Shown here in pieces: positions 61,552-62,486 of a DNA stretch of 64,000 nucleotides. A program made the position numbers and the translations under genes. The DNA lies in the NCBI GenBank assembly GCA_902790375.1, contig CADARY010000018.1, forward strand, positions 58,741 to 122,740. Reading direction: 5' to 3'. How positions within the stretch are numbered: the stretch's first letter is position 1; every line of letters begins with the position of its first letter. This DNA is from Oscillospiraceae bacterium (GTDB taxonomy: Bacteria > Bacillota > Clostridia > Oscillospirales > Oscillospiraceae). The notes under the pieces were generated by a model. That model was not told where the DNA came from. It did no database searches and saw nothing but the letters and a program-made list of their open reading frames with translations.

Positions 61552-61804
61552 AGGGGAAACGTATTTCAGCTTTTGTAAAGACTCTGGCCTGGAAATTGAT
61601 TTTGTAATTCGTTGGCGTGGAGAATGTGCATTGGTCGAAGTCAAAGCAGAAACAGGAAACGCCAAAAGTGCCGCAACGATTTTAAAACATCCGGAGAAAT
61701 ACCATGTAAATCAATGTATCAAGCTGGGCAACTACAATGTTGGCCGCAGCGGGAAGATTCTTACCCTTCCGCTGTATATGGGTTTCTTGCTATATGAGGT
61801 CTGA
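61544..61804 (+). pseudogene. C-terminal remnant of a DUF4143-type ATPase
   Basis: From about 61544 one frame reads GDEGETYFSFCKDSGLEIDF, then VEVKAETGNAKSAATILKHP and GKILTLPLYMGFLLYEV, ending at TGA 61804. This is the nuclease-like C-terminal end (D-F...V-E-V-K) of AAA_14/DUF4143 ATPases. The upstream 300 or so residues with the Walker motifs are missing, replaced by the vanZ gene. There is no start codon or ribosome binding site of its own. Confidence 0.75.
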
Positions 61805-61844
61805 GTAAAAATGATAAACGGAAAAGGAATCCGCTGACCGGCTC

Positions 61845-61874
61845 TTGACTTCGCCGTTCGGCGCAGCTTATACT
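61845..61874 (+). promoter_or_regulatory. Promoter with dyad operator before the cloverleaf element
   Basis: TTGACT (61845-61850), 18 bases, TATACT (61869-61874). The spacer holds the palindrome CGCCGTTCGGCG (61852-61863), a likely repressor site. Transcription would begin at about 61880, inside the first cloverleaf. Confidence 0.6.
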
Positions 61875-62087
61875 ATTCTTCAACAAAACGATCAGAAATC
61901 GTTTTGTTGCCTGTGAGCCAATGTGCTCACAGGCAATGGCGCATGGCGCCATTGAAGAAGTCGTGCAATACTGATCTTTCGCAAAGCAAGGGCTTTGCGA
62001 AACGCAGCGTATGCTGCGTATAAAACGCTTGAAAAACAAGCGTTTTATTGAAGATCAGTACGCTAATAGATTTGTGCGAACGGCGAA
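61850..62087 (+). other. Tandem cloverleaf structured element, function unknown
   Basis: An 11-bp outer stem (61850-61860 with 62077-62087) encloses two cloverleafs. The first has closing stem 61876-61881/61954-61959 and three hairpins: 61882-61908 (11 bp), 61909-61934 (10 bp) and 61935-61953 (8 bp); no base is unpaired at the junction. The second has closing stem 61969-61978/62051-62060 (10 bp) and hairpins 61979-62000 (9 bp), 62002-62019 (7 bp) and 62020-62048 (12 bp), with three unpaired junction bases. All stems are perfect. It lies between a promoter and a hipB remnant. It could be a structured leader RNA, an RNA gene or a hairpin-forming mobile DNA end. Confidence 0.8.
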
Positions 62088-62101
62088 ACGGAGGCTTTTT
62101 C

Positions 62102-62164
62102 ATGATTACCGACGCGAAATCCTTTGGCGAGGCGCTGCGTAAGCGGCGCAAGGAGCTCGGCTAA
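62102..62164 (+). pseudogene. HipB-type antitoxin, first 20 codons only
   Basis: ATG 62102, with GGAGG 8 bases upstream, is followed by MITDAKSFGEALRKRRKELG and a stop. This is the first helix of a HipB-like helix-turn-helix regulator; the recognition helices and the rest are gone. The sequence breaks exactly where a minus-strand AAA-ATPase fragment begins. HipB assignment is from memory of family starts. Confidence 0.6.
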
Positions 62165-62486
62165 ACAGGGAAACCATTGGCCTTTCATCCAGAAGATCAC
62201 GGATCATAAGAGTCTTATCCACATAATAATAGTTCGTAACCGCATTGCGATAATCCGAAACGCCAATGGGCAGCGGGAGGCGTACAGCAGACATCGTATT
62301 CTCTTTTGTGTAAGCCCCGGTTTTTACGCGCAGGTCTGCAGGTCTGGCTGTGCCGACAGGAATCATCCATCGGTGGCCGATCAACACCGCGCCGGGGATG
62401 CGTCCTTCTTTGCAAAGCGTCGAAACTCTCCTTGATGTCAGATTCCACAGCTCGGCCGCTTCTTTTACATTAATCATCTCCGCCAT
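62162..62486 (-). pseudogene. HTH plus AAA-ATPase-like protein, 5' fragment
   Basis: From ATG 62486 (GGGAGG 8 bases upstream) the protein reads MAEMINVKEAAELWNLTSRR, a MerR/helix-turn-helix start, then LPIGVSDYRNAVTNYYYVDK and LLDERPMVSLF, the N-terminal block of AAA-ATPase-like (PF09820 type) proteins. The next expected residues (R-P-R-R-F-G-K-T, Walker A) are missing: coding breaks at about 62163, where the hipB remnant meets it, and an unrelated frame runs on to 62106. The two truncated genes meet head to head, the scar of a deletion. Confidence 0.7.

Follow-up and report, generated by a model that had tools for sequence, protein, structure and literature searches.

The two adjacent cloverleafs in the window, by which we mean the whole 64,000-nucleotide stretch of Oscillospiraceae bacterium DNA that we analysed, belong to one copy of a dispersed short repeat with the fixed ends TACT...AGTA. 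This repeat is a MITE with an atypical target duplication and an exceptional six-hairpin architecture, and we consider it very probable that it is non-autonomous, that an IS630-type transposase would move it in trans, and that its hairpins are kept as DNA.

Fold and extent of the window copy

The original prediction had described two perfect cloverleafs stem by stem, and we found the stems exactly where it had placed them. The first cloverleaf has a closing stem of 6 bp and hairpins of 11, 10 and 8 bp that meet with 0 unpaired junction bases, and the second has a closing stem of 10 bp and hairpins of 9, 7 and 12 bp. For 61840-62110 (271 bases), RNAfold gave -128.1 kcal/mol, compared with -75.0 +/- 4.6 kcal/mol in 200 dinucleotide shuffles (z -11.6), and 0 of the 200 shuffles were as stable, in line with the accompanying claim that such junctions do not arise by chance. 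The opposite strand of the same interval folded equally well (z -12.0), and the 190-nt MITE alone folded at -98.4 kcal/mol. The likelihood that these are coincidental palindromes or an assembly artefact is vanishingly small: the assembly is a draft in 95 contigs, with nothing further in favour of that reading, but the z-score already contradicts it, as does the occurrence of independent copies in named public records and in many genomes. The window copy and its surroundings comprise the following features.

61871..62060, + strand: mobile element, a 190-bp double-cloverleaf MITE (TACT...AGTA), delimited by comparison with a 99% identical copy (G000:C32) and with relatives whose flanks are unrelated
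61868..61870, + strand: left target-site triplet TTA, read from the sequence; the TNA duplication is defined in relatives
61871..61884, + strand: left terminal inverted repeat TACTATTCTTCAAC, agreeing at 13 of 14 letters with the left terminus of the IS630 element L179
62047..62060, - strand: right terminal inverted repeat, read inward as TACTGATCTTCAAT, agreeing at 13 of 14 letters with the right terminus of L179
61876..61959, + strand: first cloverleaf, with its closing stem and hairpins A (AT-rich), B and C
61960..61968, + strand: linker between the cloverleafs, mostly GCCGTGCAA in the relatives from the genus (alignment A1)
61969..62060, + strand: second cloverleaf, with its closing stem and hairpins D, E and F (AT-rich)
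61850..61860, + strand: left arm of a perfect outer 11-bp inverted repeat in flanking DNA, absent from the second copy
62077..62087, - strand: right arm of the outer inverted repeat
61845..61874, + strand: promoter-like TTGACT-18-TATACT, a consensus match only
62102..62164, + strand: 20-codon frame (MITDAKSFGEALRKRRKELG) that may be left over from a gene for an HTH regulator, the HTH likeness being judged by eye only

The closing stem of each cloverleaf incorporates a terminal repeat. The outer 11-bp stem, which had been predicted to close the whole structure, exists and is perfect, but it does not close the element, and because it is missing from the other, 99% identical copy in this genome, we assign it, on this comparison of two copies, to the host site, as flanking sequence outside the element. 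A stem of that length at that spacing was rare, occurring in 29 of 20,000 random placements within the window. It overlaps the promoter-like site and is possibly the operator of a broken regulator gene; the element landed between the arms of the inverted repeat, probably within the regulatory sequence upstream of what looks like a broken regulator gene. The -10-like hexamer of the promoter-like site spans the left junction, being made of the last two bases of TTA and the first four of the element, and three such sites were found, compared with 1.4 in shuffles. The 20-codon frame had no Pfam match, as a fragment too short for a fair test.

On the right, the element is followed by CGC (62061-62063), and a right triplet matching the left one was absent from both full copies in this genome (TTA/CGC in the window and TTA/TCG in C32). 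These two copies also share flanking bases, with GCAGC before TTA and CGCT soon after the right end (window 61863-61870 and 62061-62064; L002 near 1501-1508 and 1695-1702). Together, the unmatched triplet and the shared flanks perhaps reflect an altered end or a linked duplication.

Dispersal, target duplication and a candidate partner

Sequence searches of the same genome returned nine matches at eight places, among them G000:C32, a 99% identical copy of window 61863-62064, and others that include partial copies. Across the genus, 21 of 101 genomes had matches, some of them only short end pieces. When 22 of these rows were aligned with their flanks, the ends were sharp and the flanks unrelated, except in the orthologous pairs L019/L020 and L026/L040. 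Alignment A1 was made of 17 near-full copies from the 22 rows, leaving out the partial ones and the orthologue L019, and a covariance model built from it matched (E <= 0.001) 31 of 400 genomes and 20 of 106 genera of the family, with at most six candidates scored per genome and E-values that are rough. Forty family matches from 11 further genera were fetched and folded, bringing the genera inspected to 12. Thirteen stretches in named public records, titled Ruminococcaceae, Clostridiales or Oscillibacter, matched the linker pattern exactly; window 61700-62300 had no match in collections of plasmids and phages, and viral contigs gave no exact match to one linker pattern.

The folded copies of the MITE were 139-220 bp long. 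Among those listed from distant genera, most hairpins had different letters yet near-perfect stems; AT-rich, two GC-rich, linker, two GC-rich, AT-rich was a common order, and a similar linker motif was present in many, not all, family copies. Exactly six hairpins and two multiloops were seen in 34 of 57 folded copies, and the remaining 23 had between four and seven hairpins and at most two multiloops; shortened forms were reduced to one cloverleaf (L015) or a single hairpin (L033 and L177). We also noted MITE types that share the TACT ends, measure 158-161 bp and differ in the interior (L181, L189, L197, L198, L032 and L035), of which L032 and L035 are adjoined by tRNA-Ser-like sequence, as judged by eye. 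One genome, G069, had many further weak model matches, at eight places exactly 163 bp long, which suggests another amplified relative.

The clearest evidence of transposition came from G467, where the repeat matched at 24 places with 88-100% identity. Eight of these places lacked the full end pattern, seven being cut by contig ends and the eighth being L126, which has TAA on both sides by eye. Of the 16 copies with both ends found by pattern, 15 were flanked by identical TNA triplets (TCA in six, TGA in six and TAA in three), the exception being L132; the middle base was thus equal in 15 of 16, which 0 of 100,000 permutations reached. Across groups, equal triplets were found in 46 of 57 copies, a weaker count than 15 of 16, since the boundary score favoured equal triplets; for the window copy it placed the boundary a few bases too far.

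Empty sites were sought by joining the flanks of six G467 sites and searching 17 genomes of that genus, and alignments crossing the junction with a single triplet were found for three of the six. At L137, five sister species aligned at 84-86% with a single TGA, which is the stop of an upstream frame of 302 codons, and six more loci aligned at 69-76% with gaps, TGA not being present in all. At L119, two species aligned at about 85% with a single TAA, and at L124 one species aligned at 78% with a single TCA and another at 77% without TCA. Among the fetched loci, no junction-crossing alignment was found for L115, L120 or L122, and a search with the flanks of L039, where the intergenic DNA has diverged, was not decisive. 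The flank of L119 (query 175-267) also holds a second, unrelated repeat that is present on many G467 contigs. The family is thus short, multicopy and dispersed, with the fixed ends of a MITE, and target-site duplication and empty sites were found in relatives. The insertion site in these relatives is TNA, all three bases of which are duplicated, and a simple TA reading is excluded for the MITE because TCA and TGA duplications exist. Of the three options that the original prediction had offered, a structure used by a mobile element comes nearest, with the amendment that the feature is itself a transposable element.

A search of the 101 genus genomes with the end pattern revealed an inward-facing pair of ends 1113 bp apart in G006, another species (L179 836-1948), which reads TTA|TACTATTCTTCAAT...ATTGAAGATTAGTA|TTA and agrees with the window element in 13 of 14 letters at each end. 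Between these ends, at L179 845-1781, a transposase is encoded in two overlapping frames, as if made via ribosomal frameshift. The two frames matched the IS630-family model NF033545 (E 1.1e-38 and 7.5e-17), the C-terminal frame at 133.3 bits, above the cut-off of 100, and the N-terminal frame alone at 61.7 bits; the transposase also matched PF13358 (DDE_3; E 2.4e-20, 73.3 bits). The terminal repeats are therefore common to the MITE and to an autonomous element whose transposase matches the IS630 family, and the same or related ends adjoin the same gene in G040, G087, G054 and G331. We infer that the shared ends are bound by the L179-type transposase, or by one closely related to it, which would then move the MITE in trans.

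IS630-family elements insert at TA and duplicate it, according to the available part of PMC2170065. A 2-bp TA target duplication was not what we found here: the MITE duplications were TCA, TGA and TAA, and in G006, where this IS has seven left ends, the triplets before them were TTA, TTA, TCA, TCA, TAA, TAA and TCA, so that three of seven left flanks were TCA. The sole IS with both ends intact has TTA/TTA, which fits a TA or a TNA rule alike. TNA duplication is a property of IS5/IS1031-type elements, and a mobiliser of that type was dropped once the partner proved to be IS630.

Agreement between IS and MITE ends in other genomes was variable. The right end of the IS in G331 is 1 of 14 letters off the G467 MITE end and 5 of 14 off that of G331's own MITE, and in G054 there are 3 mismatches in 14 letters between the IS and MITE ends. 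A transposase of this subgroup was not found in the draft assembly of the window's own genome, nor was an autonomous copy found in G467 by end pattern, and only two of 26 double-cloverleaf genomes (G054 and G331) had the IS. The genomes with the clearest IS copies (G006, G040 and G087) had no double-cloverleaf match, G006 and G040 having only other MITE types. Among 30 MITE genomes, the IS630 model matched in 14 at E <= 0.001 and above the cut-off in two, one of these with other ends; the IS630 of G262 was rejected as a partner, having no TACT ends. We read this poor co-occurrence as weak counter-evidence because draft assemblies break at repeats or lose them.

Covariation and the upkeep of the hairpins

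Compensatory changes in all stems of a fold are normally regarded as strong evidence for a functional RNA. Within the genus, 20 of 68 pairs had changed on both sides, with at least one such pair in each of the eight helices, a result that 0 of 500 shuffles reached, so that the compensatory changes in all eight stems that the original prediction had proposed to look for are indeed present. They do not discriminate here between RNA and DNA because the count of G-U against A-C pairs, set beside RNase P RNA, shows no clear RNA signature.

The logic of this count is that selection on a transcript should leave half-changed pairs as G-U rather than A-C. The control was RNase P RNA from the same genus in the same pipeline, for which 27 of 30 fetched loci were used (excluding L275, L283 and L300), and it gave 36 G-U versus 10 A-C events and 171 versus 12 cells, with 22:22 events on the wrong strand. 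The MITE groups gave 37 G-U versus 30 A-C events and 55 other mismatches (59 sequences in six alignments), a difference from RNase P that was significant by Fisher's test for all groups (p = 0.016) but not for the window's own genus alone (p = 0.11). By cells, the six groups gave 72 G-U versus 35 A-C, an excess driven by two of them (G467 at 21:3 and g11 at 18:4), where many copies can carry a single inherited change; the own genus gave 17:18. Folded on the other strand, the own-genus alignment gave 16:10 G-U to A-C events. RNAalifold prefers G-U when it chooses pairs, a bias that runs against the DNA reading. Of the 24 G467 places the count covered 19, and it took in a subset of the family copies, leaving out, among others, L075, L076, L078, L082, L091, L094, L102, L104, L106 and L111-L114.

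It is improbable that the feature is a conserved structured RNA (a leader, a 3'-UTR element or a stand-alone RNA) spread by transposition, with its fold selected in the transcript. The covarying pairs, the related folds in 20 of 106 genera, the promoter-like sequence that reads into the element in the window and the excess of G-U cells would all suit such an RNA, but by events there is little G-U preference beside the RNase P ratios in both events and cells, and the two strands fold equally well. Position and orientation relative to genes were likewise inconsistent among 59 copies: 23 lay between convergent frames, 18 were tandem antisense, 10 divergent, seven tandem sense and one unassigned, as counted from rough ORF calls. 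Rfam gave no match to the window at the gathering threshold, and at E <= 5 the element region and six relatives had weak matches only, far below the family cut-offs, in agreement with the earlier statement that no known riboswitch could be recognised. The suggestion that the fold is a leader RNA for a downstream hipB-type gene is not supported, since other copies lie in unrelated places and in both orientations; we dropped it given the orientations, with seven of 59 copies in tandem sense and none of the consistency of a leader position, and the 20-codon frame with its lack of a Pfam match.

The loops offered a second line of evidence. Hairpin C in 16 G467 copies has the loop GTT in eight, AAC in six and AGC in two, and in the orthologues L026 and L040 the four bases of the D loop are exactly inverted (CTGT versus ACAG). 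The same two orthologues differ by three double-sided pair changes, besides several single changes; gene conversion by another copy is a possible source of these differences. Being an orthologous insertion common to two species, L026/L040 is a natural pair for measuring hairpin mutation. Template switching has been reported to yield both compensatory changes and loop inversions (PMC8794818, PMC8604942, in the portions available), and the accessible part of PMC8794818 describes a compensatory change together with a loop inversion as very rare. Taken together, the G-U/A-C strand test and the loop inversions lean towards upkeep at the level of DNA over selection on RNA. Hairpins that form in replicating single strands would template their own repair, and such switching would make both arms match and flip the loops; this is the most likely way in which the six hairpins are kept as DNA.

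An alternative that also acts on DNA is that the fold is selected, as a single-strand structure or cruciform needed for transposition (joining the ends) or for harmlessness near gene ends. The terminal repeats built into the closing stems, the recurrence of three hairpins twice over in distant genera with rewritten letters, and the 34 of 57 copies with exactly six hairpins and two multiloops would all be expected of it. We nonetheless regard it as unlikely, given that less structured copies exist (L109/L137, with a matched TGA, has four hairpins), as do the single-hairpin forms L033 and L177, whose triplets are unequal, and that, over 200 nt, the two termini of the autonomous IS have much weaker folds (-47.7 and -26.7 kcal/mol) than the MITE. 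Template switching, moreover, accounts for matching arms without selection. The fuller proposal, that template switching during replication keeps the six hairpins across genera, that the folded DNA serves the transposon and that an IS630-type transposase duplicates TNA, is one we put forward tentatively, as possible though doubtful in its entirety.

Relation to known repeats and implications

Several small repeats resemble this one in part, as far as the available portions of their descriptions go. RUP of pneumococcus, moved by IS630-Spn1, is likewise a short intergenic non-autonomous repeat with IS630-like ends (PMC3049150, PMC2229807), but it is 107 bp long and tied to TA targets, unlike the 139-220 bp and TNA duplication seen here, and the two three-hairpin domains set the MITE apart further, by descriptions rather than sequences. 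BOX of Streptococcus pneumoniae is another small modular repeat that folds tightly and bears terminal repeats and duplications (PMC3049150); compared by description only, it differs in its boxA-boxB-boxC modules and in its proposed mobiliser, ISSpn2. The CIR repeats of Caulobacter share the plan of two arms and a linker, but each CIR arm is a long inverted repeat, with GANTC in one, and three-hairpin domains are not described in the part of the source at hand (PMC2229807). With ISY100 and IS630-Tc1-mariner elements the partner element shares its transposase family; ISY100 inserts at and duplicates TA (PMC2170065, in part), whereas the MITE duplicates TNA. Covarying structured RNAs in Rfam have in common with the MITE compensatory changes in all helices, but the MITE matches no family at cut-off and has little G-U preference by events. 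None of the titles or abstract openings listed for the literature searched, which lay mostly outside subscription journals, described a cloverleaf MITE, an IS630 element with TNA duplication or MITEs of Oscillospiraceae.

If our reading is true, covariation of the grade expected of RNA can arise without an RNA function, and covariation searches would need a strand test of G-U against A-C pairs. If an IS630-type element does duplicate TNA, the range of targets known for that superfamily would likewise be wider, and the bursts of near-identical copies are ready loci for measuring hairpin mutation.
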